Assembly: GCF_002775205.1 (NCBI RefSeq)
Contig: NC_036447.1
Coordinates: forward strand, 7,180,501-7,244,500
DNA length: 64,000 nt
Direction: 5' to 3'
Source: Xiphophorus maculatus
Taxonomy: Eukaryota; Chordata; Actinopteri; Cyprinodontiformes; Poeciliidae
In this document: positions 26,701-64,000 of the stretch, piece after piece
How positions within the stretch are numbered: position 1 is the first letter of the stretch
How the letters are laid out: every line of letters starts with the position of its first letter
Made by a program: the position numbers and the translations under genes
The notes under the pieces: generated by a model
What the model saw: only the letters and a program-made list of their open reading frames with translations
What the model was told of the DNA's origin: nothing
Databases searched by the model: none

Positions 26701-29700
26701 TAACGCACTATAACTGGCACAATATGCTCTAAAACAGGGTTTTACAAAGTGTGGGGTGTGTCCCCGCTGGGGGGCGCCAGAACTCAAAGTAACTGCAAAC
26801 ATTTAGCCAACTTCTCCAAGCCTATAAACCGTTCATTCATCCAGCCACCGGGGGCGCTGTTATACTGATGCTGTCTGTGTATGTCTTAACTTTTACTTCT
26901 CTAAACCCTATTGAAAATTTTATATGGCGTTACCAAAATTCAGCGGTGAGTTTCTTGACATTCAATTTTTTGGATCCTTTTGTTGCTAATTTTACTGCTA
27001 GTATCAGGCTTTAGGCCCCATTTTATCCGGAGTTATTTTTTTATTAGTCTGTGTATAAAACTAGCTAAGATTCTGAAATAGGACTGCTGATTATTTTCAG
27101 CTAATGTTTTAAGAATCCTTAACCATTTGGCTAAACTGCCCATTTATTTATTTTTATGGTGTTTTGAGATCTTTTGAAAGGCCAATGCCTGAGGATGATT
27201 GTTTCTGTGATTGGTATAATTTTGTCTGTATGTAATTATGTGGTTATTTGTTTATACCTTCAATACTTTTTGCATTTTAAATGAAATTATTGCGTTGCCT
27301 GTTCATTCGCCACAAGCTTCAATAACGAATATAATGCACAGCATCAGTGAACATGAAGAAAAGGAAACAGTTGTTGATTTTTTTTAGCTCTCCTAAACTT
27401 TGAAAACTCTTGTTCTAGAAACCTAGAACAACAGTGAAGGCAAATCTCTTGACACATTGTTCAAAGTTTCTTCTTTTCATTTTTCTTAGATGCTCCAAAA
27501 CGTGCAGATGTTTCCCTGAGTCACGTAGAGATAGTGGAGGGTGATTCAGTACATCTGACCTGCAGCAGTGATGGAAACCCAACACCTTCCTACAGTTGGT
27601 ACAAAGACAACCAAGAGATGCTTCAAGGACAAGGAGGCATGTATCAGTTCACTTCTGTCACGTCTGAGGACAGCGGGACGTATTGCTGCGAGGTTGGGAA
27701 CATATATGGACGGATGAACTCTTCATCTGTTCTTATAAATGTGGAGTGTAAGTACACAATTAGTTCTGTCTGAATATTTGTCAAAACCTTCACAGAAGAG
27801 CCAAACTTGTACGATGGATGGTTATACCAAACCCCAAACAACCAGCAGCATTTTAAAGGTGACCTATAATCCTTCCTTGTACAGGTTAGGATAGATTTAC
27901 AGATTGTACAAAACATATTCATTACATTTTTTGCACAAAATCCTTCTTAGATAATGAGATCTTAGTTCTGCCTATTTTGAGCTCCCTTCACAATGAGCTG
28001 TTTTAGAGGCTCTTGTCATTTTAAATCCAAATAAGCTGCTGGTGGCCACGCCCCCCAACTCAGCGTTTACATTCGTATGTGAAAATGACTAAAAGCATAA
28101 GTAGAGCCTCCTGCACAACCAAAAGGAATGCAGCATACCATTGTTGAATGGTATGTCAACAACAGAGAACTTTTCTTTTCCAGCAGCCATTGTACAGTGC
28201 ATACAGCAAAACTCCCCCCAAAAAACAAAAAAAGAAACAGTTGAAGAAACATGCTGGAGCTCAGCTTGGGTTGCTAGCTAACAGGTGTGGTTGCTAGGTA
28301 ATGTCACAGTGCCCATTGATTGTGACACAAAAAACAATAATTTATTGTCAAAACCTACTGGGTGTGTTTTTTTTAAGAGTTTGGGTTGCTTTTAGAAGCA
28401 GTTGAAACCCAAATAGATATACGAAAATAGATGCAAAAAGTGAATTTTGTATAATAAATCCCCTTTAAATTTGATCTTTAGATAATTATTTATATGCAGC
28501 CTTGTCACAAAGATCCAACTATTATACTAAATTGCATCTAACATGCAATGAAGTACTCCAAATTTGAAAATATGAATGGTATGCTTGTAGATTTTTGCTT
28601 ACATTTTTGCACAAATAGACAAACTGAGTTACACATGCGTAACCGCTCTTCTTAAATATCATTTTTAAGCAAGTCTGCTGGGAGACGTTGTCTAAACATG
28701 ACATGTTTTCTTGATCATTCTCCATCAGATCCTCCAAGGCTTCCCTCTGTGTCTGTGAATCCTCCCGGTGACGTAGCAGCAGGTAGTTCAGTGAATCTGT
28801 CCTGCACCAGTGTCGCTAACCCTGCAGCTACGTACACCTGGTACAAAGAGCATTCAACTTCCCCAGCAGCAGATGGACAGACGTTTACCATTGTGGACAT
28901 CAGAGGTGAACATGGTGGAAATTATTACTGTCAAGCCAGAAATAGCAGGGGGAACCATAACTCCACCGTACATCTGATTGTGGTTTCAAGTAAGCTATTG
29001 TCATTTTTAAAAATAAATATATTATCCCTTTCAGGTATTAGCTTTGTGTTTTTTCCTAAAACTTTTTTGATTTTCTTAAGACATAAAAAAGGTAAGAATT
29101 TATTTTTTTAGGTGATCAATTGTAATTTTCTCCAAATATAAAGTTGTTGTTTGAAAAATACATCAGTAGTATTGTTCTTTAGGGGTTATCTGATGTCACA
29201 ATATTTTTTTTACCTGCAAGAGTCGTCTACAGTAGAAGGAGGGACAGTGTGGGTTGGCATGTTTTTTTGTCAGTCGGCCATATTGGATTTAACAAAAATA
29301 ATTTCTTGCATTTGCAGCTGATGGCCAGTAGTTGATAGTGTATTTTATGATGCATTAGTGTTCACTTCAGTGGTCTGTGTGCGTAGTTTCTTATATTCTT
29401 TATTGCTATTTATTGCAATGTGGCTGTCAAGGTTGTAAAAATAATCAATATTTTTTACATAATTAACACTAAAAATAACTTCTTTAAAGATGCTCATGTG
29501 CATCTACATCATGGTGTCAAGCCTGTTTTCATTTTGGGTCGTATCGACATCACGAATATCCTAAAAAGGATCGGTTGTGGCAGAATGCCTTGGTAAAACA
29601 TTAACAAACTGTTAAAATACTAATAAATAGCAATTTCTACATTCAATTAGTATATATAATATTGAAAATCTTTTCTTAATTTGTCAGTATAGAGAAGAAA

Positions 29701-30858
29701 CTGCTTTGATTTGAGAGGCTTGTCTCTACTTGTATAGAGATTGTATTCATTCTGGTTCATGTTTGCCATTTGCTTTATTGTATTAGTTGGCGTCCTTCCT
29801 GTGTTTAAATTACCCTTTCTGCTACTTGTCCTTTATCATATTCATACTGTTAGTTGGCAGGAAGTTTGTGCTTTTTGTGTTACCTGCAAAAACAGGAAGG
29901 TCTAATAATTGCTTTGTTCATTTATTGTATGATTTCTAACTTTAAACTCCCTTTATTGGGTTTTAAAAACAAGACTGAATTAATTTCTTTAGCTGCCTGG
30001 CTCTGTGACTATTTAAGGTATTCAGTAAATGTTTTTTTCTTCTTGTTTTTGTTCCCTTATTTCAGGTTCTGCTTCATCTGCTGTTGCTGGGTTAATCACG
30101 ATTCTACTCCTGATTGGTTTATTTTTGTCTGCCTTCATCATTTTTAGGTGATTTAAATACTTTACTGCTGTTTTTATACTCTATGTGGAATGTTATGTCA
30201 TTCATTCTTTTCCTTATTTTTTTCTTGACTGTTTTATATTTGTAGAAAAAAGAAGGTTGTACGGCAAATTCACCAGAGCAGAGAGGGAGCAGAAGATAAC
30301 GAGACAAAGAGATTGGGTGTTAGTCTTCCTTCATCTAAACACTTTGAACTGTGTTTTCCTCTCGTCTAATGGGAGAATGTGATTCTGCAGGGCAGTTTAG
30401 GAGGCTGGAGTTAAGTTTCTCTTCTGAATCCAGCATTTGCTCTTTTGCAGAACTTGGGCCGACATATGGGGAGTTCATCAACTGCAGGACTTGGAAATTC
30501 AGTAGATCAAGGCGACGTTTGCTATGCCAGCGTACTTTTCTCTAAAAATCAAGAGGAATCTCTTTACTCCAACTTTGTGCCAGCTGAACCCAAAACATCT
30601 CAAAACGAGGAAAAGGAGGAAGACGTGGAGTATTCAGCGATCATGATCAAGAACACACCTTTGTAAGTTCAGAACATTATTTCCTTTATATGTTCTTACA
30701 CTTAATCCAGTTAAAGTAAGTAAAGATTTTAAGCTTTTAATGATAATATCTGATACTTACAAAGTGTGTTTTTATCTCTTTGCAGTAAGAAAAGTTATGA
30801 TGCTTCAGAGGAATCATCTGCACTGTACAGCACAGTCTGCAAAGTCAACAGATTATAA
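20773..30858 (+). CDS. CD22-like / Siglec-type inhibitory receptor (Ig superfamily)
   Basis: Coding exons: 20773-20824, 23408-23752, 23843-24055, 24268-24615, 24701-24922, 26242-26511, 27490-27747, 28729-28989, 30066-30147, 30246-30318, 30451-30662, 30786-30858; 802 aa, all phases agree. Layout: signal peptide (1-17), V-set D1 (18-132), short C2-like D2 (133-203), V-like D3 (204-319), short C2-like D4 (320-393), C2 domains D5-D7 (394-656) with typical W-Y-K and Y-x-C, membrane helix (about 660-682), then tail. D1 keeps a Siglec-like Arg in YKFRF and an extra Cys on the E-strand side. The tail has ITIM matches at Y733 (VCYASV) and Y769 (VEYSAI), a near-match at Y793 (ALYSTV) and a YSN Grb2-type site at Y747. 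CD22 family members dampen B-cell receptor signalling through SHP phosphatases. The exact orthologue is uncertain because teleosts carry expanded sets of such genes. The donor at 30318/30319 was chosen by phase. Confidence 0.9.
21590..22738 (+). mobile_element. LINE ORF2 C-terminal relic, interrupted by a MITE
   Basis: In intron 1 of the CD22-like gene, the frame 21601-21790 reads a CxxC...H pattern (CAFCKEIE, then HMF) typical of the end of L1/Tx1-type reverse transcriptase ORFs. After an insertion (22088-22445), a second frame to about 22734 continues with ILHFLFGLTKYYIYSSRRNK and a VKIKVKAKF motif, the usual tail of such ORFs. The reading is broken, so it is not functional. The family placement (Tx1-like) is tentative. 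Confidence 0.5.
22088..22447. mobile_element. Tc1/mariner-type MITE (TACAGCTCTGGAAAA ends)
   Basis: The left end reads ATACAGCTCTGGAAAAAATG and the right end reads AATGTTTTCCAGTGCTGTAT, inverted repeats of each other. The termini with GAAGAGTCCGC and GTGTCTCTTAA just inside match a very common fish MITE type. It splits the LINE relic, so it inserted later. Confidence 0.7.
25500..26110 (-). pseudogene. Tc1-family transposase relic
   Basis: Read on the minus strand, pieces of a Tc1-type transposase are visible. From about 25960 leftwards there is a phrase like LVAEAG..SVIIHNETS, then a SDRKT segment, and near 25770-25790 the hallmark W-R-R-V-L-Q-SDETKI, holding the acid of the DDE core. Several stops and frame changes separate the parts. 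It lies in the intron between exons 5 and 6 of the CD22-like gene and is inactive. Confidence 0.6.
26738..27420. mobile_element. hAT-like element with AAAGTGTGGGG terminus
   Basis: The left end reads TTTTACAAAGTGTGGGGTGT followed by GTCCCCGCTGGGGGGCGCC, the well-known start of a class of hAT-derived repeats. The right end near 27395-27415 (CTTTGAAAACTCTTGTTCTA) is a plausible inverse. It lies in the intron before D6 of the CD22-like gene. The boundaries are approximate. Confidence 0.45.
27853..28470. mobile_element. non-autonomous element with TTTAAAGG(T/G)GACCTATAAT ends
   Basis: The left end TTTTAAAGGTGACCTATAAT and the right end ATAATAAATCCCCTTTAAAT are inverted repeats. The interior has no frame. 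This is a common fish MITE layout. It lies in the intron before D7 of the CD22-like gene. Confidence 0.65.
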
Positions 30859-32835: not shown

Positions 32836-35800
32836 ATGGTAAGAGGACATTTCCAGACTAAGCTAATAGCATTAGCTAACAACAACTACTCGGATTATAG
32901 TTGTAATAACTGGAAATATCCAATTTACTATATATTTAGTGTAATGATGTTTTATAATTAAATCTCAAAACTGTTGCTACTTTTGCGTAAAGGAAAGAAA
33001 TCTGCTGTTTGATTGCTGTTTCTTTGCGCTTTCCATTTATTGTTTACTTTAAAATATTGAATAGGCCTGATGTGACATTATGGAAATTGGGGATTTCATG
33101 TCCTATTATTCTATAATAATTATGAATGGTGTCTCTTTTTGGACTTCTTTTAATTTTTTAATGTTTTTTTGCAACAAAATGTGATTCTTGTTTATTTTTT
33201 AAGCATCTCATTTTAAAAGCTCTGATTTTGGAAAATTTGATGTCTGAATGGCTCGGGAAAGAAGATTGTTCATGTTCCTTTGTTTTTTATGCATTTTATT
33301 TATCCAGCCTCATCGAAAGAAGAAATCATTTATTGAAAAGAAGAAAGCGGTGACCTTTCACCTCGTCCACAGAAGTCAGAGGGACCCTCTGGCTGCAGAT
33401 GAGAAAGCGCCACAGCATGTCCTCCTGCCTGCTGCAAAGGTAAACATTCACAGCCCTGACTCTGGTTCTGGTTCCGGTTCTTTTATGGAGTTCCCAATGG
33501 AACTCATTGAACTTTTCCGATCATAATACAATTTAAGCACTTTGACAGTAGAGTTACACCCACACAGTCGTACTCTGATGGGTAAAGTGTTTGGTAACTT
33601 GGGTCTCTTGTCCAAGTCCACATCAATACACTGCAAAAACACAAAATCTTACCAAGTATTTTTTTTTCTAGTTTCTACACTTGAAATAAGACAACACTAA
33701 CTTACAAGTAACTTTTCAGCAAGATATAGGACATTGTTTTAAATAAGTAATTCCTTAATATTGATATTTTTTTAAAACTACTAGTTCCTCTGGCAGATTA
33801 TTTCACTTATAGTTTATTTTATCCATGTTATAAATGATGTTTATTAGAAGCAACATAGAACTTTGCAGCAGAATTGCTAACAACTTGTTCTCAATGTATA
33901 GGAATATTTGTCAGTAGTATAAATTGATATTTGAACTCCTTATGCAAAACCAGCAACAAACTGACTTAAATACAAGGTTATTGTCTCTTTACTGAAACTC
34001 CATATTGCTGAAAAACAACTTTGTTTCTTCAACACTATGTTCCTTACAAAACCACCAGTACCCAAAGTTAAGACATGCTTTCTTTTCACAATAAAAGCAT
34101 ATAAGCAGAAATGTTCAGCTGTACTGTTTGTTAAACGTAGCAGTTAGATTTTCACAGCTGATTCTGGAAATGCTGAAGTGACACCCTGGCTGTGTTTCCC
34201 AGGCGGATGCAGAAAAGAGGCGTGAAGAGCAGAGAGACTTTGGTGTTTTCTTCGATGATGATTACAACTACCTGCAGCACCTGAAGGAGGCGTCTGGGCC
34301 CTCGGAGCTGGTAGCCGCCGGACCCTCACACTTCAACAGAGGGGCCTCTGATTTCAGAGATGAAGAGAAGGAAAACGAGGTGGAAACTGTGAGCAAGGAC
34401 ATTCCTGTGAGTTTGTGTTTTAATTTTTGTCTGTCACACCTGGAGTTATTTCTTGTCAAGATAAACCGATCACAAATTTTTCAACAGATTTTCAACCCTC
34501 AAGCTTTTTCTTAAAGCTTTGATACTTTAAAGCTTTAAGTATCAAAGCTTAAAGATTTCACTTTAATGAAAACTCAAATGGATTAAACCTGGGAACTCTG
34601 CTGTACCATTCAGTGGTTCTGCTGTGTGTTGAAATTCTTCTCTCAAAGCCTGAAAAATCACTGAGATTTCAAGACATGTAGTGAAAATAAATGTCCTATT
34701 TAGAGAGCTTCTCTGATTCCATTATTTAACACCAGTCTTTTCCACTCAGAAACACCAAAGTGATGTTCTGTCTGTTAGGTTTGATGTGTTTACTGACCAG
34801 GAAAAGATTGGAATTCTGACTTTCTAACTGGCCAGGTATCTCGCTGCATCTCTAGACCAGTTTATTATTACAAAATAGGAATGGTTAAAACACCAGGTGG
34901 TAAATTAACCATGTGGGATTTAAAGTTTTTTTTCTAGGCAACAAAAAACCCAGCTAAAATAAATGTTGTATGTTTACATCCTATTTTTAAAGGATATTGA
35001 TCCTTTAAAGATTTACATTTTAAAGAAGTAAATGTCGTCATTGTATGAAAATATGCAATGAGGAAAATTCTTTTGCGAAAAATATTAGTAAAGTATGTAG
35101 TTTAACTAGAAATTATTTGTTGTGTCTTGTTGTTTTTTCTTTGACGTTGCTTGTGCTTGGTCTAATATTGCTGCTTCTGGTAAAGTTGCGTGGATTTTAT
35201 GTTTTTTTGTTTAAACAAATAAACAATAAATCAAGAAATAACCAAACTAGTCTGATCCCTGTTTGGTTTGACGAACAGGAAGCTACGATCCACCTGCCGT
35301 CTTCGGTGTTCGCCTCGGAGTTTGAGGAAGATGTGGGACTTCTGAACAAAGCCGCCCCTGTTTCTGGTAATTCACTCAAAATAGACCAGATAATTCTCTT
35401 AAATATTGTTAAACAAACATGTTCTTTGTTTCTGTGGAAAAAATAAATGTGCTCTCTAGATTCTAGTTCTGTTATTTTGAGTGTTTTCTTACATAAACCT
35501 AATTGTTTTCACTGTGTGCTGTGTTTTCGTCCAGGACCCCGCCTGGACATGGATCCAGATATTGTAGCTGCTTTAGACGAAGACTTTGACTACGACGACC
35601 CCGACAACATGCTGGAGGATGACTTCATCCTGAAAGCAAACCGCACAGAAGGAGCTGTGCATGCAGAGTAAGACAGAAAATATAAAAAACAAACGAGAAA
35701 TCTGCAGAAATAGGTACCTGATTCTAGAATATTCAAAATGTGTGGAAGCCCTGGAAAAGATGTGGCTTTGGTTATTCAGTCATGTTAGGTTTTTAGTATA

Positions 35801-38800
35801 TTTGTGCTATATTAGCAATAGCAATATATTTAGAAGAAATTTTATCTATGTTTTAATCTTTTTTCCTTTCAAAAGAATTATAAATGACAGTAAATAAATT
35901 TAAAAATGTTTTTTTTTTCATACATTCCTTCTGTGGCTTAACCTAAATTCAAAGTCAAGACGTAAAAAGTCAAGATTCCTGGCTAACATCACTCTGAACT
36001 ATGCAAATCCAAATTTTCCAAAATTAAATCTTGAAAAACAGAAAATTTGATTAATAGATAAAATCAATTTATCGCTCAACTCTACTTTCAGTACAAATAT
36101 ATCTTTTTAAACTTTCTGTTTGTGTGATTCCAACAGAGGATCCGATGATGATGATGAGTGGGAGGACACAGACGAGGAAGGCGACTTTGACTCTGATGGC
36201 GGTTTCTCAGGTGACGAGCACCTGGAGGGCGGCGGCCATGATGGAGAGTTTCTGTTCATGAACGAGGAGACAAAGAGTCGCTTCACAGAGTATTCGCTGA
36301 CTTCGTCTGTTATGAGGAGGAACGAGCAGCTCAGCCTGCTGGACGACCGCTTTGAAAAGGTCAGAGGTCACTACCGCTACACTGAGCACTGTTAGCAAAC
36401 TAGTCAAATAATTGGGTCATTAGCAGGACTTTGGAGAACTTCTCCGCATACAAAGGAGGTTCATCTAAAAGTCTGATGTTTAACATCGGGTGACTTTTCC
36501 AGAGTAAAAAGAGAAGTTATTAATCTGCTAATGAACCACGTTTATGATCCGGCGTTTTTGTTTTTCAGTTTTATCAACAGTTTGATGACGATGAGATCGG
36601 GGCTCTGGACAACGCCGAGCTGGAGGGCTTCATCGAACCGGACAGCGCCCGCCTGGAGGAAGTCATCAAGGATTACTTCAAGCAGAAAGCAAAAGAGTGA
36701 GATTCTTTCCTAGCCTCTTGTCGTTGATTCCTGTTACCGAATTTGTTTTTGTAGCAGCTTTATTGTGTTTTTGGGTCAGCTCTCTGAGGCCTGACGATTT
36801 GGGTCCAAAAGAACTTCCTGTTTTGAATGAGGAGGAAGATGAGGATGAAGAGGAGATGGAGACGGTTGTTTGTGAGGCTCCTCAGGAGAAGTGGGACTGT
36901 GAAACCATCATCAGTAAGTCTTTGTTCACGGTGGCTACCAGGAGAGGCACTTAACTTTTGATTCACATTTAGTAGCTTGAACTTTTCTAAATTATGTCAC
37001 ATTACAACCAAAAACTAATATAATTTAACTTAATGGTTCAACATAAAGTGGCACATAATTAAGATGGGAAATAAAAGCGATGCATAATTTTCAAAACTTT
37101 TCTACAAATAGAAAATTAAGATGTGCCTTTGCTGATGTGCTAAACTCTGATAACCTTTAAAAAATCTAAATAAGTTTAAGTCCTCTCATTGGTAAATAGA
37201 GACCACTTGTGTGTAATTTAACCTCAGAATAAATCTAGGTGTATAAGTCGGTCACTCATGTTGGAGAACATCGGTGACAGTGGCGTCCCCAAGAGGGGGA
37301 CCAAAGGGGCCATGGCCCCTTTTTGAAAACTGCTGGCCACACCACTGGGCCTCCACAGAATTATTTTCATGTTATAAAGAGGCATGCAGTCATCTTCTTC
37401 AATTAAGACACATACTTAAAAGCTAATAAATACATTTTTATTTTTTTACTTTTTTAGTTGTGACCCGCTAAAATTGTTACCTGTCTGCTCTGGCCACCAG
37501 GATGAAAATGAAAAATAAGCACATCAGTTGAGACCAAAATAAAAGTTGGTCTCAACTTTAAGGGGACAATAATGTCCCCTTAAAATACCTCAGAGCCTGG
37601 AAAAGGTTCCTGTGGTGCAAATATCTTGAAATTAAAAACTTACCAGAGTGTTACAGTTTGACAGTGTTGTAGTCAAGACCAACTAACCCAAGACCAAGAC
37701 TTTTAGGGTCCGAGACCAAGTAAAGACCAAGACCGAGGGAAGTAGAGACCAAGACCAGCGCCCCACGGTACATGACACAATAAAATGTGAAATATGATCA
37801 AAATTGCTTCTCAAATTGATTTGAAAGATTCACATTCCCATAAAAAACATCTAGATATTAAATACTTAGAGCTGAAATAAATTTAACCAATATTAAAAGC
37901 AGAACAAACTGTTTGTTCTGCGTTGCTTCCATCTCTGTGCTACAATTCCTTATGATTTATGCAGCGCAATTCTATTACTGACGATTAGACAGACATCTTC
38001 TGCCACTGCGCATGTCTGGAGCGCCGCGTGCGAGTGAAAGGTGGGGATGGGGAGAGTAACAAACAGGTAATTGGTAAGTCACGTTATTGCTTGGATTCTA
38101 GTCGGTGCGTTTTGCATGCAGTAAATACAAAGATGTTACTAATAAACTGGACAGTATGTTGTAAGTTTAGTGATATTTCCACAGTTGCAGTCTTGACTGG
38201 TCTTAAAATAAAATCCTGAGACCAAGACCAAGACCGGTCTGTACTACAACACTGTTAATTGAGGAAGAAATATTGTCTTAATTTATGTAACCCTACAACG
38301 TACCACTAGATGTCACTAAATCCTGGAAAATACAACATTAAATTCAGTCAGAAGTGAACAAACATCTACATTATTTTACCACCTGTGGTTTTTTTTTTCT
38401 AAATTAAGCATATTCATATGACAAGGGAGAATGTAATAACATCTTTGTTCACAAACGTCTGAGGCAAACGAAGGCCTAAATTATTTATTTTTACTAGAAA
38501 TTTTCTTACCAAATGTTTGAAATGCATTTTTTCACAGCAACACTGTAAAATATCAATTGTTTGAAGATATAAAGTGAATAAAAGACAATATTTAGAGGAT
38601 TTAGATGGATAAGGTCCAATCAGCCTCATATCTGTTTCCTTATTAGCATCAGTGATGAATTTGACTCTCGAATCTTATGAAGCTCCATCATCTCCATTGA
38701 CGAGAGGAAACACCTTCATCCTTGACATTAATTAAATTAACAGTCAACAACTGAGATAAAATATTGAAACTACAAAGAAATGCTGCTTTAGTTTAAATGT

Positions 38801-40808
38801 TAACCACATATTCTTGTTTTTCAGGTACGTACTCCAACTTGTTCAACAGACCTAAAGTCATTGAAGAACCAGCAAAGGTATCAAAAATACAATCATTTAC
38901 ACACATTAAGTAAGATGCACACATGAACCAGAAATAGTGAGTTAATTTTCCTATATGTGGTGTGCTTTGACCTGTCAGGTTTAAATATCCCAGAACATAA
39001 CTTATTTGTTTTGATAAGTTGTACAGTTGCAAGAGTTGCCAACTGCTGTGGTGCTGCTTGGTTTGCTACATTTTACTGGTTTCCCGTCCTAAAATTGAGA
39101 ACTTGTTTAGCAGCAAACTAAATTGAACTAATTATGAGTTTGTTTAATTAAGCAGAGTCAAATATCCGAGGTCGACTAATCAGACAGAAACCTTCTTGTC
39201 TGTCTGCAGCCAAAGGCGATCCGTGTGTCCGGTAAGACGGGCATCCCTCTGGACGTCCTGCCCTCCAGGGGCCTCACAGCCAAGCAAGCGGAGCGCATGA
39301 CGAGAATCAACGACTCGGATCTGCCGCGCGTGTCGACGCAGGCCCGAAACAAAGAGGAGAGCAAAGAGGAGAGGAGGGCGAGGAAGCAGGCCATCAAAGA
39401 CGAGCGGAAGGTGAGGAAACCTCGAAGAGCCTCTGGTTTGGCTTTGTTTGTCGTTTGTTGAGTCGGATAAGCGTGATCGTCAAAGATCGTTGAGCTAACG
39501 TAAGGATTTCCATCGTCAAAAAGCAGATTCGTGTACCTGTTACCATGGTAACACATGCAGAGTTTTCTTAAAGCTCAAAGAAAGGCAAAAACTGAGCTGT
39601 TTTATTCTGAGATACCACTCAAAGATCATCTTCTGCAGAGAAAGATTACTCTAAAGTTTTTTTCCTGTTTTAATCTCCAGTTTCTACATTACAGCTAGAA
39701 ACCATTATGTCTGGAAAAAAAAAAAAAAAGATGATTTCCTCAGGAATGTTTCTCCAAACTGCTAAAAATCACAATCTGGATGGCAGAAAGTGAACAGACT
39801 TATTTACAGTATTTCTGCTGGGTTGAATCATTTCCATCTTTGTATTATTTGTATTATTATAAAAAGAAAAAGAAACCCTGAAAGCTGCTGCTTTGTCAGG
39901 CGATACCTGCAACATTTTAACAACTAAATGTTATATATTTAGTATTGTGGCTTCAATTGTTCCTCTTATGGCATCCAAAGCTGTTTTACACTAGAACATT
40001 GAACCATAGGTTGATTTACTGGGAACCAACGTTTTACCACTTGGGATCAATCTTCATTGTTGGTTAGTTGCAGTTTTACTATCAATTATTTTCATAATCG
40101 ATTTATTCTGATGATTTATCAGATAAAAAAGTGGCACATCTTGCATATTTATTTAACCACTTAAAGATTTTTATATAATGTTAGAAATACAATAAAAGTG
40201 CAAATAATTAAATTCTCTTTTCAAGTTGCTTAAAATGCAATAACGTAGCATTCCTTTAACATACGGTTGATGCAAAGAATGCATCTGCAGCTGAAAAATA
40301 CTTCTATGTGAAAAGCTGAACCTTTTCTGCTTTCCTTATTTATTTTGTACAATTTTGGTTTAGTTGCTATTTTTGCAGATTGCCTTTGAGTCTCTAGATT
40401 CCAGTTAAGGATTCACAATCATTTCAGCCACATATAAAGTCAGATTTGCCAAAGAAACCCAGATATATCTTGAAGTTCCAGACAAGTTTATCGATAAGCA
40501 AAGATGGGTCAAAGCAATATTTTCATTACAGCTAATGCATCTTTAGCCACGATTTATTTATTTTAAGGGCACCACTTGTTTATTTTGCTTGACAAAAGGT
40601 GAACAGAGACACTCCCTGCCAGATGAGAAAACACTGCAACAGAAGCTCAACATTTGGATATACTTTGAATATTCTTTTTTTTTTTTTTTTTTTTTAGGAG
40701 AGGAGAGTGGAGAAGAAAGCGAACAAGTTGGCGTTCAAGGAGGAGAAAGTGCGACAGGAGAAGCAAATGTTGAACTTAAGGACAAACATTCAGGGCCTGA
40801 AGCTGTAG
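32836..40808 (+). CDS. ltv1: LTV1 ribosome biogenesis factor
   Basis: LTV1 is an assembly factor of the pre-40S ribosomal subunit that helps place small-subunit head proteins and leaves on phosphorylation. Coding exons: 32836-32838 (the ATG alone), 33308-33439, 34203-34406, 35279-35366, 35535-35667, 36137-36359, 36569-36696, 36780-36913, 38825-38877, 39210-39410, 40698-40808; 469 aa against about 475 in human, all phases consistent. Conserved blocks: PHRKKKSFIEKKKAVTFHLV at the start, FFDDDYNYLQHLKE, LPSSVFASEFEEDVGLLNKA, acidic stretches (DDDDEWEDTDEEGD), ETKSRFTEYS.TSSVMRRNEQL, DDDEIGALDNAELEG, EKWDCETI, SGKTGIPLDVLPSRGLTAKQ and a basic C-terminal helix. No breaks were seen. The last exon follows an unusually long T tract. 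The 3' end converges with ifngr1. Confidence 0.97.
33629..33850. repeat. half copy of the palindromic CACTGCAAAAACAC element
   Basis: It starts CACTGCAAAAACACAAAATC and runs through AACTTTTCAGCAAGATATAG to about the element's centre (TTATTTCACTTATAG). The inverse half is missing. It lies in ltv1 intron 2. Confidence 0.7.
37261..37440. repeat. third copy of the GTGGCGTCCCCAAG repeat
   Basis: CAGTGGCGTCCCCAAGAGGG, GGGGCCATGGCCCC, TTTTTGAAAACTGCTGGCC and AGAGGCATGCAGTCAT follow the same order as the two copies at 860-1560. It lies in ltv1 intron 8. Confidence 0.65.
37661..38255. mobile_element. non-autonomous DNA transposon with ACAGTGTTGTAGT inverted ends
   Basis: The left end is ACAGTGTTGTAGTCAAGACC and the right end is GTACTACAACACTGT, inverted repeats. 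Both flanks carry clustered AAGACCAAGACC words. A central GC-rich patch contains CTGGAGCGCCGCGTGCGAG. No transposase frame is present. It lies in ltv1 intron 8. Confidence 0.7.
40060..40435. repeat. fragment of the GCAGCTAACAATTAT hAT-like family
   Basis: The left part reads TTAGTTGCAGTTTTACTATC with TTTTCATAATCGATTTATTC, and the right part reads CACAATCATTTCAGCCACAT. The order matches 9155-9985. It lies in the last ltv1 intron. Confidence 0.5.
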
Positions 40809-48600: not shown

Positions 48601-51600
48601 TGTGATCGGCTCCATGGCAACATCTATGAATACATCAACCACTTTATTGGTGAGTTTTTAACTTTGGTAGTGAATTACTTTCAAAATATTTTTAACCTAT
48701 GCACGCTTTATGTTTTTGTTGATTTTCTATTGGCTACTTGATTAGGCCTGTCATGGTAATAAATTTAGCTTGACAATAAATTGTGTCAGAATTTATTGCT
48801 ATAAACGATAATATAATGTATTATACTGATAATAGCATAATAATAAAATAACACATTCTCAAAGATCAATAAATTTTAAATTATAATGAATATTTAATAC
48901 TGAAACTGGAAGATAAAGGAAGAAAACAACAGAAACAACAAATAAACTTAATTATAAAGTCTGTAAACAAAATTAGTCCTCAAAACAAAAGTGCTAGTTG
49001 AGTCCAAAGCACCAGACTGAAGACGTTAATCATCCCATTTTTGATAGAAAGAGAAAAACTATAAATCAGGCAAATGGAAATGATTGAGCTCATTTTAATT
49101 TATCGTTCGATTAACTGATTTCAGATACTTTAATTTCCTTCTGCTTAAATAATTACCAAGTCATTTAACAAAAGTTAAATAATCTTTAAGATCATTCTGA
49201 GTTGTTTATTGAAAGAGTTTGCAACAGCAACTAAAATGTTTTTGACCTTTGCTTTACAAACTGGTGTGTTTATAGTTTTACAATTCTTCAGTTGCAGGTT
49301 AAACTCCACAGATCAAACGAGATGATAAGAAAGTTAAGAAACTCGCTGATAGCAACAACAACCGGCCTCAGTCGACCGGTTAGTCAAGTTCCAAAAGGTG
49401 TCGCAAAAATACAAAAACGCTTTAAAACGAGGAAATGGAAAAGGCAACAGATGGGCTCTGAGAAACAATCCAGGAATATACATGAAACTTCAACTTGTAC
49501 CAACATGCAATCAGATAACAGCCCACAGCAAAAGAAGAGAAATTTATCCAAACAGTGACTTGCTAAAGTTTTTACACCCCACATTGTAGTGCAAAGACAA
49601 ATATTTAGAGTAATTTTTGTGATCTATAAACACAAATAATTAAGTAGAAGTACTATTCCTACTTTGAATCGGTCTAAGACTAATTTTTAATCTATAATAT
49701 TTGATAAGAACTAACATTGTATTTTATTGTTTTATGTTATTTTATTGATTTTAGCTGTTGTATTTTATACATTTATTGATTGATTAGTATTTGATGATTT
49801 TGTTCAGCACTTTGGTCCATTTGCATACATAGAAACCAGAAGTTTACATACACTGTATTTTTTTCCACACTGACAAACTTTTCCCATTTTAGGTCAATTA
49901 AGATTACCAACAGCAGCAAATTTTATTATTTTCTTTAAAGTCAAAAGCTTAAATACGCCTTTAAACAATTTGGGACATTTGATGCCAGGTGTTTGGAAGC
50001 TTATTCATAACATTTGAGTTAATTAGAGACAAACCTGTGGATGTAATTTAAACACACGGCTTCTTTCTGTAACATCAATGGAAAGAAAAAATAAATCAGC
50101 CAACATACCATGAAGAGAATTGTGGTGTTTTTTTATATAAAGTATATAAACTTCTGGTTTCAGATGCGACGTTTATAGATAAAATTGACTCGACAAATTA
50201 CTTCCCGTTTGCAGAGAGACAGAAACATTAGTTTTGGACCGCCGGCCTATCCTGAACTCTTTGTAGACCAACTGGTTTTCTTCCCATCAACTCTGACCGG
50301 CTGAAGAAAAACAGCCTGGCAGCATGATGCTGTTACCGCCAAACTTTTTTCATTTATCTATTTTTAACAAACAGCAGGTGAGAACCTGAAAAAAAATAAA
50401 AATAAAACAATTCCTGCCCCACTGACATGCAATTTTAAATAACTGATCTAAAGCTTCCTTGCTGCTCTCATCAACCTACAAACATTTAAATCTCCCCACA
50501 TGATGAACTCTGAAATTATTCCCACATTGAAATACACTTAAACCTCACATTCTCTTCCTTACATGTACAGTTATTCATATATTTTATATTATATTAACAA
50601 TAAAATGTTTGGTCTTTGAGACACCCATCCTGTAAAACATATGAATGAGATTTTTAAAGCTGATTTATATCTGTACTTTGTTTAGACTCATTTAATCCAG
50701 TCCAAAACATTTTCTGAATATTGAGTGGAAGTTGATGGTTTTACAGTTTTGAATTCAGTAAGTCGGGCTCGTTTCCGGTGAGAGTTGGACTCCGCCAGGG
50801 CTGCCCTTTGTCACCGATTCTGTCCACTTTCATGGACAGAATTTCTAGGCGCAGCCAAGGTGTTGAGAGGATCCGATTTGGTGGCCTTAGGATCTCATCT
50901 CTGCTTTTTGCAGACGATGTGGTCCTTTTGGCTTCATCGGGTCGTGATCTGCAGCTCTCGCTGGAGCGGTTCGCAGCCGAGTGTGAAGCGGCTGGGATGT
51001 GGATCAGTGCCTCCAAATCCGAGGCCATGGTCTTGAGCCGGAAAAGGGTAGAGTGCCTTCTCCGGGTCAGGGGGGGGTGTCCTGCCCCAAGTGGAGGAGT
51101 TCAAGTATCTCGGGATCTTGTTCACAAATGAGGGAAGAAGGGAGCGGGAGATCGACAGGCGGATTGGCGCAGCGTCTGCCGTCAAGTGGGAGCTGTACCG
51201 GTCCGTCGTGGTGAAGAGAGAGCTGAGCCAAAAAGCGAAGCTCTCGATTTACCGGTCGATCTACGTCCCCACCCTCATCTATGGTCATGAGCTTTGGGTC
51301 ATGACCGAAAGAACGAGATCACGGATACAAGCGGCCGAAATGGGTTTTCTCCGTAGGGTGGCTGGGCTCTCCCTTAGAGATAGGGTGAGAAGCTCAGTCA
51401 TCCGGGAGGGACTCAGAGTAGAGCCGCTGCTCCTTCACATCGAGAGGAGCCAGTTGAGGTGCATCTGGTCAGGATGCCTCCTGGACGCCTCCCTGGTGAG
51501 GTGTTCCGGGCACGTCCCACCGGGAGGAGGCCCCAGGGAAGACCCAGAACACGCTGGAGGGACTATGTCTCTCGGCTGGCCTGGGAATGCCTCGGGATTC

Positions 51601-52651
51601 CCCCGGAAGAGCTGGAACAAGTGGCCGGGGAGAGGGAAGTCTGGGCCTCCCTTCTGAAGCTGCTACCCCCGCGACCCGACCTCGGATAAGCGGAGGAAGA
51701 TGGATGGATGGATGGATGGGTGGGTGGATGGATGGATATTTACAAACGGTACATACTCCAGTTTTAGGGAAGTAAAAAAAACACAGATTTGTTGTGAATT
51801 AAACTATAAATAAACTAAATTGATATTGAATTTAAATTACTTAAGCAGACTTCTCAATCTGCTTTTTAGCCGGTGGAAAAGTACAAGCTGTAGTGGAGCT
51901 GCATTCAAGCAGATTGGGCAAGAGTTCGAAGAAGAAGAACAAAAAAGTATTTCCGCACCTTCTGTCAAACAGGTCAGCCCTGATTACTTTCAGGTGACAA
52001 CATCTCACAGAATTGTCCCTTTTCAGCCTTGTACAACAAAACAAAGGTCATGATTCACAACCTCTTCAACTGAACATATGAGACATTTACCTAAATATCA
52101 AAAAACATACATTTTTTTAGGATTTGCATCAAGTTTTCAGATTTAATTTTAAAGACCTTAGTCAAGTTAATTTGTATTATTTATATTTTTTGTGTCATTT
52201 TTTCAGAACAAAAGACGGGAAATTCACTTGTTTTGTTAAAGTAAACAAAATAAGTGAATTTGTTGGCTAGGATTTCTATGGATATTCATTCTTTTCATTC
52301 GGGATTTTCCTTGTTCATTTTATCAACCACTTTGAAATAGAAACGAGATATTAAAACATCAAAGAAACAATCCTTTCCTTATCAGTTCGTGTATGTTAGT
52401 TGTTTTAGGGTAGCTACATCTTTACAATATTTTTCTCCAATATTAGATATATTGCAGTCATTTTCTATTTTTCATTTTTAATTCATATATATATCTTTAT
52501 GCATTGTCTGTAAACTAGCTACAAAACCTTATTTCAGCTAAAGAAACGTCAATATTTTTGTTTTAAAAACTGTCAAGGAAACCTTCTTACCGGCGCCAGA
52601 AAAATGCCCGCAGATGAGAATCAGGGCCGTGAACGCACCATTCGTCAGCAT
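42605..52651 (-). CDS. ifngr1: interferon-gamma receptor 1 (ligand-binding chain), CRFB family
   Basis: A class II cytokine receptor that binds interferon gamma and signals through JAK1 and STAT1. Coding exons, leftwards: 52591-52651, 46688-46811, 46404-46564, 45761-45918, 44316-44466, 43594-43727, 42605-43021; 401 aa, phases consistent. Signal peptide 1-20; first fibronectin-like domain about 21-115 (opens VPPPSNVMVNC...NTTVSWDY); second about 116-215 with paired cysteines; membrane helix about 224-248; cytoplasmic tail about 150 aa, shorter than in mammals. The STAT1 dock SPYDRPHA (Y378) matches the family YDKPH motif, and the C-terminus EPVIGYHGN resembles the family's terminal IGY. The JAK1 box (LPKS in mammals) is only loosely matched by MPKIR at an exon end. 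The acceptor at 46564/46565 and donor at 43594/43593 are weak and were set by phase. Teleosts have two paralogues; I cannot say which this is. Confidence 0.9.
43080..43500. repeat. low-complexity cluster of GAAATTTCTGAG words and inverses
   Basis: The last ifngr1 intron contains many copies of AAATTTCTGAGTTTGAAAA, TTTTGAGATT and their reverse complements, with runs of A or T. It looks like slippage-expanded, self-complementary DNA. Confidence 0.7.
46965..47466. mobile_element. reverse-oriented copy of the GTTTAGTTCGCTTTAAT element
   Basis: The right end ATTAAAGCGAACTAAACAGG followed by GCTGGTGTGAACACACCC is the reverse complement of the left end at 10690-10740. The interior GGGGGCGCCACAAC matches the GGCAGCGCCACCACAG block. 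It lies in ifngr1 intron 1. Confidence 0.6.
47955..48440. mobile_element. hAT-like element (GTAGGGCTGAAGCGATTAAT end)
   Basis: The left end TGTAGGGCTGAAGCGATTAA is clear, with TTTTGAAATAATCAACTAA inside it. The right edge near ATTGATTGATCAATAGATGA is less certain. It is related in layout to 9155-9985 and lies in ifngr1 intron 1. Confidence 0.45.
48743..49112. mobile_element. hAT-like element (AGGCCTGTCATGGTAAT end)
   Basis: The left end AGGCCTGTCATGGTAATAAA, then GACAATAAATTGTGTCAGAA and ATTGCTATAAACGATAATA; the right end is ATTTATCGTTCGATTAACTG. This is a familiar fish repeat layout with no coding content. It lies in ifngr1 intron 1. Confidence 0.5.
49825..50168. mobile_element. Tc1/mariner-type MITE (CAGAAGTTTACATACAC ends)
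   Basis: The left end ACCAGAAGTTTACATACACT and the right end AAGTATATAAACTTCTGGTT are inverted repeats of the kind that bound fish Tc1-like elements. The interior is non-coding. It lies in ifngr1 intron 1. Confidence 0.7.
50760..51738 (+). pseudogene. 5'-truncated LINE, reverse transcriptase C-terminal part
   Basis: The first frame (from about 50762) shows GLRQGCPLSP, then LLFADDVVLL, the catalytic FADD box of reverse transcriptase. After a frameshift near 51065-51090 (a G run) the frame continues with EFKYLGILFTNEGR, LIYGHELWVMTERTRSRIQA and FLRRVAGLSLRDR. A second shift near 51450-51475 leads to RMPPGRLPGEVF, GRRPQGRPRTRW and a stop near 51688. The element ends in a GGAT repeat (51701-51736). 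This is the tail organisation of a common fish non-LTR retrotransposon. The endonuclease and most of the RT domain are missing, so it is dead. It lies in ifngr1 intron 1, antisense to the gene. Confidence 0.85.
51701..51738. repeat. (GGAT)n tail repeat
   Basis: GATGGATGGATGGATGG with a few GGGT variants at the 3' end of the LINE copy. Such tetranucleotide tails are typical of the element's priming end. Confidence 0.9.
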
Positions 52652-54068: not shown

Positions 54069-56380
54069 ATGATCCGGATGCTGCTGGACAGCAGCTGGAT
54101 GAGGTTTGGACCAGCAGGCGATGGGCTGGACGACTGGGAGACGGGACGGCTTCCAACACAGGAGCAGCAGGTGTGTGAAGTTACATCATAACTGGATAAT
54201 TATTATAATAACAATACAGTGCAGCATTTTAAAGTTCACTGCAAAAACACAAAATATTACCAAGTATTTTTAGTCTAGTTTCTAGTTTAAGTATCTTAGT
54301 ACACTTGAAATTAGACAAAAATAACTTGGGTAGAGTAGCCAAACATTTTACTAAAGTATGAGTAGAGCTACTTCAACACATTTTACTCAAGTAAAAGTAA
54401 AAAGTCTACTCAACTGCTGAGTAACTGATGAAATTATCAATTATTTAATATTTAAAAATTACATCATCAGATGATCCAGAATATAACGTTAAGTGGAAAT
54501 TTTGGTATTTTAAGAACCACAATGACAATAAATCATATAAGTAGCAAAAAATAACAAAATCAGGCAAAATATTATTTTTTCCAGATCAGTTTCTATAAAT
54601 AAAAAAACTTATGAAACTTTAACAAAAACTGTTAAAGTCATTAAATGATTGATAATTTGGTAATTTACTCAGTACTTGAGTAAACTTTTTACCAAATACT
54701 TTTTTACTCTTACTTAAGGAATTTCTTGCGTGGCTACTTTTTACTTTTACCTGAGTAAAAATATGCTAAAGCAGAAATACTCTTACTCGAGTAACATTTT
54801 TAGATACCCTGAGCGTAAGTGATTACTGGGAGGGAATTTAGAGACACTGAAGTAAACAACAGCCATGCTGTTCTGTAGCAGCTGGAAGGTTGAAAGATCA
54901 GCCTCATGTGTGGATCAAATGTAAATTCAGCTTTTGTCTTATCTGCTGATGCGGCTTTAAGTCAAGACAAAATCCAACCACTCTTTCCCAGCTGGCAAAT
55001 CCCCAGAAACCTTCGGTTTTAGGCCACTAACGTCGTGCACGCATTCGAATCTGGAATCCACACAAATAGGATTTAATAGCGTCTTACTACTGAAAACAAA
55101 ACAACATGTCTTCTAACTTCTACAGAGGGGAAAGTAATCAATTTGAAATAACAGAAAATGCTGATTTTGGTCAGCTGTGTTACACACAATTAACCCAACA
55201 TATGACATGATGTCATAAAGAAATTCATCTGTAGAGAAAAAACAAAAACATAACAGAAAACAAACAGTCTCTCTGGACCTTCTAGAATAACTTTGGGTAA
55301 AAATGAGAAAGAATTAAATCATGTTTTTAAATACAGTTACAATAACAAATGCAGATTGCAGCAGGTTTTCAGTTTTTAATGGAGTAATTGCATAGAAAAA
55401 ACATGGTACTTTTAGTATTAGTACTATTAAAAGTACCAGTAACTTTGCACTTTCTTTCTGAGTTTTGTAGTTTTTAAACTGGAACAAATTAAAGACGCTC
55501 AAGCTAGTGAAAAATTACATGAATATGTTTTATTTTCGTTCTGTCATTTTATTCTATTCTGATTTTATATTTGCACACTTTGGTGCAGCTTCAACCTGTT
55601 CTTAAAGCAAGAACAAAACCTTGACATAGACAATTATTTGCATCTGTTATTATAATTTTACATATTTAATCAATTAATTGTCAATTAAATACATATTTCA
55701 ACATTGAATTTAACGTTTATTTCATGGTTCATTTTAATTAATGATTTAATGGTGTTTTTATTTAATTTTGTCCCTTTTGGCCCTCTGTAGTTGTAATGCA
55801 GATTATAAAGGTTCTAATCATTTTGTTCAGGTTTTAAAAGCAGAAATCCAGTGAAATTATTACTTGTTTTCATGTGTTACTTTTCAGATACCATCCTCTA
55901 TGGTGTAATGTAAGAAAATCAGGTTTTTAAATCTGTATCTTTCTTGCTGATCTTCAGATCATCACCTGGCCTGATGTGGAGTTAGAAGAGGACAGAGGCT
56001 CAGAGCTGGCGTTGTACATTTGTCTCCCGATCGTCTCCGTTTTCCTGCTGGCTCTCCTGGCTGGTCTGATCTACAAACGCTGTTTCCGTCACAAACTTAC
56101 CCTGGCCAACATAATTGCCCTGGACGTCCAGGACGCAGACGCCAACGCAGAGTTTCTAGCCTCCCTGACCAGGAACGCCGAGCGCCACACTAGCACCAGT
56201 TCTGACGGATCGGACGGCGTCTTCATTATGGTTTATCTGCCGCCGCCGTACGAGGAAACGCTCACCAAAATCACCCGAGCCGCCAGCCTGGCCAGCTCCA
56301 GAGACGTAGAGGCGATGAAGATAGAAAACCTGGAGGCCCTGCTGGGCCCTGAGCTGAAACATAACATCCAGACTGTGTGA
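54069..56380 (+). CDS. smim28: SMIM28-like small single-pass membrane protein
   Basis: Two coding exons, 54069-54170 and 55958-56380, join in phase 0 to 174 aa. The first exon encodes a short N-terminus (MIRMLLDSSWMRFG..., ...DDWETG) whose pattern, with the downstream membrane segment and proline-tyrosine motif, resembles vertebrate SMIM28 as I recall it; the match is from memory and moderate. There is no signal peptide. A membrane helix spans about 51-73 (ALYICLPIVSVFLLALLAGL) followed by KRC. The tail has an acidic/Ala stretch, a Ser/Thr-rich patch (112-119), a LPPPYEE motif (128-134) that fits WW-domain (NEDD4-type ligase) binding, and a Leu-rich end. The function of the family is not established. 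A transposon begins 7 bases after the stop. The exon structure is firm; the name is less so. Confidence 0.7.
54238..54806. mobile_element. ACTCAAGTAAAAGTA element inserted in a palindromic MITE
   Basis: CACTGCAAAAACACAAAATA starts at 54238 and is cut at about 54326, where GGGTAGAGTAGCC begins. The second element runs through CACATTTTACTCAAGTAAAA and ends near GTAACATTTTTAGATACCC (about 54806). The remaining half of the first element is not visible beyond it. This lies in the intron of the SMIM28-like gene. Confidence 0.6.
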
Positions 56381-61290: not shown

Positions 61291-61334
61291 AAGACATATA
61301 AGCACCATGACACACAGGCTCAGAGTCAGAGAAG
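61285..61334 (+). promoter_or_regulatory. TATA-like box before the alpha-lactalbumin-like gene
   Basis: GACATATAAGCACC near 61291-61304 lies about 35-40 bases before the ATG. If it is the TATA box, the 5' UTR is only about 10 bases. An upstream non-coding exon is also possible. Confidence 0.35.
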
Positions 61335-63780
61335 ATGTTTCGTGTCAAGATAAAGACTCTTGCGCTTTTTGCTTTTGTTGTGCTGGGATGCAGCCTGGCC
61401 GGAGCTCGAAATGTGACCAAATGTGAACTGAGGCAGCAGCTGATAGTGGCATTCAAGTCCCTACCAAACAATGTAACGGTGAACGGACTGACTGAAGAAG
61501 TCTTCTTAGCCAAGGGTTGGTACCCGATTTTGTTTCTAGATAAAAAACAAATAATTGTAGGCAAAGTTAAATCATAATGGTGTTTGCTTGTTGTTGAAAA
61601 ATGATTTGAGAAAACTGAACAGTCAAATCAATTACTGATTTCATTTTAAACTTTTCAGTGGTCTGCCACGCGGAGCGTCTTTCAGGCTTTGACACCAATG
61701 CCGTGACCAAACTGAGCCATGGGACGGGAAAAGAAAGTCAGGAGAATCCAAGTGAGAGCAAATCATCTGAATCTAAGGAGGAGGACAAGAATAAAGGGAA
61801 GGGAAAAGGCCAGGAGAACAGCAAGTCCTCCGAAAGCAACGAGGATGATGTGAATGTGACCCTTTACGGCCTTTTCCAACTCCCCGGGAATTTGGTCTGC
61901 AGCAGCACCAACAGCACCTCACTCAACATCTGTGGTATCAACTGCAACAGTAAGTACACGGTTATTGTGTAACTAACCCACAAATCAACTGTTTTTTGCT
62001 AACAAAATTTTTTTCAAAAATTGTGTTGGGGGGGCAGGGTTACATTTTCAGTAATCCACACCTTAAAATGTTTATCCAAAATCAACGTTTTTTGCTGACA
62101 AACTGTCTGAACAGGTTGTTTAGGGTTCTGTCTTTGTGTTTATGTACAAATGTTGACATTTTTGTGTAAATTTGTTCAGTTTTGCATTATTTTGCCTAAA
62201 ACCGTATCAGTGCTGGTTTGGTCAAAGTAGGCCAAAGTAAGCTAGCACTGATATCGCCTAAGCAGTTAATTCTCCTATTATTTTAAACTGACCAACTTTA
62301 CACAGCTTCCTTAGGGATATAAAACATCTCACTCAAACATCAAAGTCTTTTCAACACAGAAAAACACAGCTACATTTCTCACTTGTTGTATTTCTGACAA
62401 AAAGTTGCTTGCTAAATACAGCCATAGCCACGCCCCTCAGTGTATCTTGGCTCCACCCACTTCTGTGTATTTTTTCAATGATTGTGTGGGTGTGGGGTTA
62501 TGTTTTCATGTGGAACCCCCAAATCTACTTTTTTTTTACTGACAGGGTTCTATCTTTAAATTTCTGTGCAAATTTGTTGAGTTCATATTATGTTGCCTAA
62601 AAATGTTTCATTTTGTCAAACGTAAGCTGTTTAAAACGGTACTGTTTTATGTCATGCAGCTCTGAATTCAGATTTAAAACCATCTCAAACATAAAACAGC
62701 ACAAAAAAAGTTTAGATTTGCCACTTGTTGGTTTTTTGGATTTAAAAAAAAGTCGCTACTATTGAGGAAATTAAAGTTGCCTAAACTCATGGAATATATA
62801 AATAAAGGTTTAAATAAGACTCGGAACTCCATCTTTTCATGGTCAAACGAGAAGAGATTTTTAATGCACATCTGCGGAACCAAAATATCCAAAACACATT
62901 GTTACAGTAGTCCCAAAGTCTCTTCTCTTCTACTTCTGATATCAGCTTTTTATAGAGTCCCAGCTCTACTGGTGTGTATTGGGAAGCCTCGATCAATGGC
63001 GTTGCTTTCCTCCATTTACGTAGTTCATTTGGCTCCGTCTTACACTGAGTGTGTATTGGAAGTTCTTTGGGAATATTCAGACCTATTGACCCCCAACATC
63101 TGCTCCGTTTCAAAAGTGCTAAACAAGCCACTCCATCACTCATATGTTATTCTTATCGGTCTAAACAGCTTTCCTCCCATCACATTTCGGTCCAATTTTA
63201 TGCTTTGCAAGCAAGAAAAGGGAAAGGACTTCCAAGTTATTCAGGTCAAACTGACCTTTAACGGCGCCAAATTTCCTCAGTAAAAAACAACTCCATAAAG
63301 AGTATTTCCGCTCTTCGGATTGACCCAGTCCATTTGACACAATACATTTCTTTTAGGTTAAAACATAACTTAGTGCGAACCAACCAAACAACATAATTTT
63401 TACCTAATAATATAATTATATTCCTCTACACTACAAAGTTCATAGCAATAGTACCACAGCCCCCCTCTGCTCATCCCCACACTTGGCACTTGGCCACGCC
63501 CGTCTGCGTGTCTTGGCTCCGCCCACTTTTCCTGGAATTTTTTCTTTTCAATAATTATCTGGGGCAGGGTTAGAGTTACATGTTAAGCTACTCATTGCTT
63601 AGGTGTCACATGTAGAGTAATATGAGGACTGTTAACATTTTTTTACTGTTTTCCTCAAGTCTTTTTGTTCTGTCATCTTAAACAGGAAATACTGTTTTTG
63701 TGTTTTTTTTTCTTAGAACTAACTGATGACGACATCTCTGATGACATCACCTGTGTGGTGACGCTCATCAATGAGCTTGT
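61335..63780 (+). CDS. secreted alpha-lactalbumin-like (lysozyme C family) protein, 3' end outside window
   Basis: Exons 61335-61515, 61659-61949 and 63717-63780 give 179 codons so far; at least one more exon must lie beyond the window. Signal peptide 1-24. The mature start NVTKCEL matches the C-type lysozyme/alpha-lactalbumin start. Cys30, 63, 141, 152, 156 and 170 fit six of the family's eight. CHAERLSGFDT aligns with the lysozyme active-site strand, but the catalytic Glu35 position is Leu68. LYGLFQL aligns with the Asp53 strand, where Asp is Leu129. The calcium loop is complete: K158, D161, D163, D166, D167 (alpha-lactalbumin K79, D82, D84, D87, D88). Residues about 82-125 are an extra Ser/Lys/Glu/Asp-rich insert. 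Sequons: N26, N126, N145. So the product is probably a secreted calcium-binding, non-lytic family member. The first donor (GG/GTTGGT) is weak, leaving residues 50-62 uncertain. Confidence 0.8.
62020..63660. repeat. direct repeats in intron 2 of the alpha-lactalbumin-like gene
   Basis: A unit with GCCACGCCC, CTTGGCTCC(A/G)CCCACTT and a G-rich GGGTTA(C/T) segment appears at about 62428-62520 and 63491-63600. A related G-rich piece starts at about 62025. The following text (GACAGGGTTCTATCTTT, TGCAAATTTGTTGAG, TTGCCTAAAA) at 62540-62605 echoes 62130-62200. These look like duplications of one intron segment. Confidence 0.6.
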
Positions 63781-64000
63781 GTAAGTTTTTATTTGTTTAT
63801 TTTTATTTTGTATGTTGTACCAAAGTGGGACATCAAGTTCCTGATGGTAAACTGTGTATTCTTAAATATTTTCATGATGGTGGTTGAGTTATATGAAGTA
63901 CGGCAAAAAAGTGTCTGTCCCCTTACAGATTTCTTCTGTTTTTGGTTTTTTTTGCCACAATATATCATCAGAGAAATCGTGATGTTTCCACTGGATTGCA

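Follow-up and report, generated by a model that had tools for sequence, protein, structure and literature searches.

The question raised by this locus is whether a fish gene that carries the two defining sequence traits of alpha-lactalbumin, loss of the catalytic acids and a complete calcium loop, belongs to the alpha-lactalbumin line or has come to resemble it independently, and what its product might do in place of lysis. With such a gene, the age and the first role of that line become directly testable, and the answer bears on how milk-type proteins arose from lysozymes. The gene lies at the right edge of the window, by which we mean the whole stretch of 64,000 nucleotides analysed here (C5:7180501-7244500, C5 being the contig that carries it). 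In excerpts of a 2011 family survey, only one lysozyme-like gene is counted in each genome of a bony fish, and no good candidate for a non-mammalian ortholog of alpha-lactalbumin (LALBA) is named (PMC3141428). No study of the window gene was found among the matches listed in the open-access PMC literature.

Reading the contig beyond the window edge completed the gene, which comprises five exons with a 642-base coding sequence for 213 residues plus the stop codon, GT/AG introns, a frame that is open across all five exons and an AATAAA 74 bases 3' of the stop. The last two cysteines, which the initial annotation had expected in a fourth exon outside the window, were recovered there in exon 5. 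The parts of the gene are as follows.

61296..61302, plus strand: ATATAAG 5' of the start codon, a weak motif that we take to be TATA-like.
61335..61515, plus strand: exon 1, with the start codon at 61335, the signal peptide and TKCEL, ending in phase 1 at the family intron 1 position.
61335..61406, plus strand: signal peptide of about 24 residues, the cleavage site judged by eye.
61659..61949, plus strand: exon 2, with VVCHAERLSGFDT, the loop insert, TLYGLFQ and NICGINCN, phases 1 and 1.
63717..63780, plus strand: short exon 3, with the calcium loop and a helix start, ending at the phase-2 donor GTAAGT of an extra intron.
C5:7244681-7244725 (window-equivalent 64181-64225), plus strand: exon 4, 45 bases, past the window edge.
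C5:7244843-7244903 (window-equivalent 64343-64403), plus strand: exon 5, 61 bases, past the window edge.

The donor of exon 1 (GTTGGT) is weak; an alternative donor at 61520 breaks the frame, and exon 3 read through without an intron runs into TAA at 63782-63784. The exon breaks had been described as lysozyme-type, which holds for the introns of phases 1, 1 and 2, since these match the junctions in both conventional lysozymes of the same genome, but not for one additional phase-2 intron that cuts the canonical exon 3 after LINELV and thus leaves exon 3 of the window gene short. Since human genes of the family have intron locations and phases in common, according to an excerpt of PMC3141428, this extra intron is a departure. 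The two conventional genes are located on another contig.

C8:1544000-1553999 (L005), head-to-head on opposite strands: pair of conventional lysozyme C genes that retain Glu35 and Asp53 and have no Asp87-Asp88 pair.

These genes have eight cysteines, as does the window gene; unlike it, they have both catalytic acids and no insert, and their exon 3 is undivided (79 bases long in the one copy that was counted). A conventional lysozyme of this genome is identical to trout lysozyme at 87 of 128 residues, which fits a fish origin. As a prediction from sequence, the model of the window gene is sound and unusual.

The window protein was placed in the lysozyme/alpha-lactalbumin family (GH22) by the Pfam profile PF00062 with E = 7.6e-15 and 55.7 bits against a cut-off of 27, which is above chance. 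Matches to DUF7518, DUF4778, Amanitin, UBE2O SH3-A and Hepcidin were all below their own cut-offs. The features from which the family had been recognised at first, namely the signal peptide, TKCEL, SGFDT, YGLFQ, NIC...C, the loop KLTDDDISDDITC and six in-register cysteines within the window exons, are all present; the complete gene has eight cysteines in family order, seven of which align in MAFFT, the seventh in order being 4 columns off its family position. The alignment columns confirmed that both catalytic acids have been lost, and all five calcium-loop residues (Lys79, Asp82, Asp84, Asp87 and Asp88, the ligand list being taken from an excerpt of PMC7565966) are retained, as had been claimed.

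61679..61681, plus strand: codon at the catalytic Glu35 position, now Leu (precursor Leu68, hand-counted), from the alignment.
61862..61864, plus strand: codon at the catalytic Asp53 position, now Leu (precursor Leu129, hand-counted), from the alignment.
63717..63745, plus strand: calcium loop K-LT-D-D-D-IS-D-D, the first base of the Lys codon being 61949.

The loop reads CNKLTDDDISDDITC in the window gene and CDKFLDDDITDDIMC in human alpha-lactalbumin. A lysozyme C enzyme has Glu35 and Asp53, and here both are Leu; a calcium-binding lysozyme has the loop together with both acids, and here the loop is retained and the acids are gone. By its sequence, the loop qualifies as that of alpha-lactalbumin. 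The calcium-binding lysozymes of dog, horse, pigeon and echidna are accordingly like the window gene in the loop and unlike it in Glu35 and Asp53. From what is known of the family, peptidoglycan hydrolysis by the usual mechanism would be impossible for this protein, which would bind calcium and form the disulphides of the family.

Exon 2 also contains a loop insert, between SGFDTNAVTKL and VTLYGLFQ.

61715..61855, plus strand: loop insert of 47 residues, rich in Ser, Glu and Lys, with five S-x-E sites.

Judged by the family fold, the insert would be placed beside the former active cleft. Its five S-x-E sites compare with a shuffled mean of 2.05 (p 0.021), a modest enrichment. The precursor has four N-glycosylation sequons. 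The predicted pI of the mature protein is 5.06, that of three alpha-lactalbumins 4.69-4.80 and that of nine lysozymes with both acids (hen, human, trout, the two C8 genes, echidna, pigeon, horse and dog) 8.41-9.46. An acidic pI is no mark of alpha-lactalbumin alone, since SPACA3, SPACA5 and LYZL6 are at 5.20-5.53. The SPACA3 and LYZL sperm proteins are members of the same family, and in some of them the catalytic positions are changed or the pI is acidic, but unlike the window gene they have neither a full calcium loop nor an insert. The insert, the extra intron and the sister gene described below were all absent from the initial annotation.

A second unusual gene was found tail-to-tail with the window gene on the opposite strand, about 11 kb past its stop codon.

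C5:7258960-7258801, 7258073-7256322 and 7256224-7256164, minus strand: exons 1-3 of the sister gene, from the contig read beyond the window (L004).

The locus stood out weakly in permissive genome searches, with 18.5 bits (E 0.494) in the search with the window protein, inside an open frame of 630 codons, and 24.1 bits (E 0.0188) in the genome search with PF00062. In the latter search, matches above the cut-off were at the C8 lysozymes only, and the ten rows with E up to 10 were six exons of the C8 pair, the sister gene and single matches on C23, at C5:4399708 and on C13. This search does not count the family, because the window gene itself is absent from the list, and further divergent members may have escaped it as well. 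The lone weak match on C23 looked like chance on reading; those at C5:4399708 and on C13 are likewise lone and weak. With the sister protein as query, the genome search listed four matches, each an exon of the sister gene itself.

Exons 1-3 of the sister gene encode 657 residues; trimmed to a shorter form, the protein reaches 51.0 bits against PF00062. Exons 1 and 2 both end in phase 1 at family positions, and exon 3 ends at a phase-2 donor at most one residue from the extra intron of the window gene. The sister gene has Arg and Ser at the two catalytic positions. Its loop, CTDFTNDDITDDIEC, retains Asp84, Asp87 and Asp88, with Asn in place of Asp82. The same loop that carries the insert in the window gene holds 536 additional residues here (limits set by hand), including 183-base units arrayed in tandem (7.0 copies, 96% matches). 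Nine R-X-K-R motifs of furin type bound eight units at spacings of 61, 60, 61, 61, 61, 61, 61 and 63 residues; no R-X-K-R motif is present in the window gene. Furin-cut precursors of several peptides are a known class, to which the sister gene is alike in the regular spacing of R-X-K-R and unlike in that its repeats stand within a lysozyme-type domain. Unit 1 is strongly diverged, yet it retains R-X-K-R, an NST sequon and acidic Ser sites. Its pN/pS values against units 2, 3 and 4 (0.414/0.684, 0.413/0.586 and 0.428/0.582), together with that of unit 2 against unit 3 (0.102/0.171), suggest constraint on the repeats; no constraint is seen between units 2 and 4 (0.103/0.107) or among the five regular units (0.0189/0.0171), the latter value being uninformative.

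No convincing exons 4-5 of the sister gene were found by pattern, by eye at splice sites around C5:7255900, or by an HMM scan (21 rows; 22 loci, 220 kb, of which 40 kb were C8 flanks) that covered the left-flank loci L030-L035 and the C8 flanks L036-L039. The failure of the HMM is weak evidence, because it missed exons 1, 4 and 5 of the window gene, too. The acceptor side of the extra intron was not found in the locus either. Since the last exons were not found, the disulphides that the C-terminus of the sister protein would form and the distal end of the extra intron are unproven, and the sister gene could be damaged.

To what, then, is the pair related? Among proteins of solved structure, alpha-lactalbumins fill the first 17 rows of matches to the mature window protein (45.0 to 41.4 bits, several variants of one species included), and the top lysozyme follows at 37.9 bits, so that the likeness first seen in lost catalysis and retained loop is borne out by scores higher than those to any lysozyme of solved structure. 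For the sister gene, the highest score in such a comparison goes to dog milk lysozyme (51.9 bits; alpha-lactalbumin, 50.7). Outside the calcium loop, the window protein is identical to alpha-lactalbumin at 38/106 (bovine), 37/106 (human) and 36/106 (guinea-pig) positions, to the sister gene at 30/90 and to dog calcium lysozyme at 36/112. Platypus (31/109) and wallaby (27/107) alpha-lactalbumin are, within a few points, no closer than dog lysozyme or trout lysozyme (30/112), the latter being about level with them.

In the trees, 17 of whose 21 rows were entered by hand with four of these checked, the window and sister genes form one clade (97/95, 21 rows) and join alpha-lactalbumin at 100/100 (19 rows), 98/89 (21 rows) and 96/89 (calcium-loop and catalytic columns dropped). 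Alpha-lactalbumin as a separate clade without the pair is not rejected (p 0.188 with 21 rows, 0.237 with columns dropped). The branches of the fish genes are very long, with an end branch of 3.49 changes per column when the window gene is taken without its sister, and the pair nests inside therian alpha-lactalbumin, which is an impossible placement. When four therian alpha-lactalbumins were removed, the pair left platypus alpha-lactalbumin and joined the calcium lysozymes of dog and horse, and no branch was starred. Of the sister line of alpha-lactalbumin and the convergence offered by the initial annotation, the trees tend towards the former, but long branches and impossible nesting weaken this verdict. 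The ancestry of the pair probably lies close to alpha-lactalbumin or to the calcium lysozymes.

We consider it slightly more likely than not that the window gene encodes a secreted, non-enzymatic scaffold of lysozyme fold for the display of a processed loop, derived from a calcium-binding lysozyme near the stem of alpha-lactalbumin. Convergence would have the pair arise within the ray-finned fishes, starting from a conventional lysozyme C, with a calcium loop gained or regained and catalysis lost. The long branches permit such a misplacement, catalytic positions are changed in other family members of the set, e.g., SPACA3, and calcium loops are present in several lysozymes. Yet the pair constrained to the teleost lysozymes was rejected with 21 rows (p-AU 0.0104) and with columns dropped (0.0103), marginally with 19 rows (0.0479), and for the window gene alone at 0.0416; moreover, the Asp87-Asp88 pair of the loop is missing from both C8 lysozymes. 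We regard convergence as possible, although improbable.

The same tree results and rejected constraints, the 17 leading rows and the top identity of bovine alpha-lactalbumin would agree with the window gene being truly orthologous or sister to alpha-lactalbumin, older than the split of fish and mammals, and acting as a modulator of a galactosyltransferase. The two proteins are indeed alike in fold family, absence of catalytic acids, full calcium loop and acidic pI. The window gene differs from LALBA in its insert, in longer helix-A and exon-3 regions and in one extra intron. The contact patch for the galactosyltransferase consists of Phe31, His32, Met110, Gln117 and Trp118, according to an excerpt of PMC7565966. 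Four of the five contacts are changed in the alignment, to Glu, Arg, His and Tyr, and position 110 is Leu as MAFFT aligns it but becomes Asp when the cysteines are paired up manually. At least four of the five are therefore changed and at most one is retained, the count varying with how the C-terminus is aligned, which makes a role in lactose synthase unlikely. KANSL2 (C12orf41) and CCNT1 are conserved neighbours of LALBA; matches to the zinc-finger family of KANSL2 were found only on C1 and C7 and none on C5, so that KANSL2 is absent from the locus. The distance of platypus and wallaby alpha-lactalbumin, the impossible nesting, the departure of the pair from platypus alpha-lactalbumin and the top match of the sister gene to dog milk lysozyme also speak against orthology, which we hold to be unlikely. 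By function, the window protein is probably not an alpha-lactalbumin.

That the window gene is a decaying copy without function is very improbable: fast evolution, repeat-rich surroundings and a sister gene without a found C-terminus would fit, but eight cysteines, five calcium positions, the open frame of five exons and the GT/AG splice sites are intact, and possibly related transcripts are named in excerpts of two expression studies, as a match to medaka 'lysozyme C, milk isozyme-like' in a pipefish brood-pouch table (PMC3853555) and as a responsive trout transcript matching human LALBA (PMC4754912). If these are orthologs, relatives of the window gene are expressed and stand unstudied in the databases.

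The favoured reading, a non-enzymatic scaffold, may be put together as follows. The ancestor of both genes would be a calcium-binding lysozyme from near the base of the alpha-lactalbumin line. The window gene would yield an acidic protein that is secreted and probably carries N-glycans, its C-type lysozyme fold stabilised by calcium. The dead fold would then act as a scaffold, with a flexible insert projecting at the rim of the former substrate cleft. The S-x-E sites of the insert, a motif that we assume to be of FAM20C type, are probably phosphorylated in the secretory pathway, in which case the protein would act via binding of calcium, mineral or a partner. In the sister gene, the same loop would have grown into a series of units, and furin-type cuts would free about eight peptides of 60-63 residues; for a precursor, it would be unusual to have such a run of peptides, each flanked by protease sites, inside a domain rich in disulphides. 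We infer phosphorylation, furin cutting, glycosylation and calcium binding from motifs, and S-x-E phosphorylation, furin cutting and peptide release with less support than calcium binding and lost hydrolysis. A further step is put forward tentatively, and we would sooner doubt than accept it: the calcium-stabilised dead fold as a carrier of peptides, with a phospho-acceptor insert in the window gene and a nested, furin-cut proprotein of eight units in the sister gene, its lysozyme halves possibly held together by disulphides, and the line being old enough to reveal the role that the ancestor of alpha-lactalbumin had before milk.

The window gene is surrounded by the following features, given in window positions.

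23353-30663: CD22/Siglec-like immunoglobulin gene; three tested pieces match Ig domains, the rest was read by eye.
33248-39574: LTV1 (ribosome biogenesis); two of three tested pieces match the LTV profile.
50736-51654: reverse-transcriptase fragment, with an RVT_1 profile match at 50736-51128.
55931-56377: frame like a single-pass membrane protein with a PPPY motif, without a Pfam match.

The reverse-transcriptase fragment is probably from a LINE-type element. In the 100 kb to the right of the window, long frames resembling an AKT-like kinase, CCT4, FAM161A and XPO1 were recognised by eye. Between the two lysozyme-family genes, a long frame reminiscent of a Tc1-type transposase (L003, 8505-9629) and another that is gag-like and includes a zinc knuckle (L003, 5927-7606) were seen by eye, and very long minus-strand frames that look like a retroelement polyprotein were seen in the same way at positions 1830-7912 of L022.
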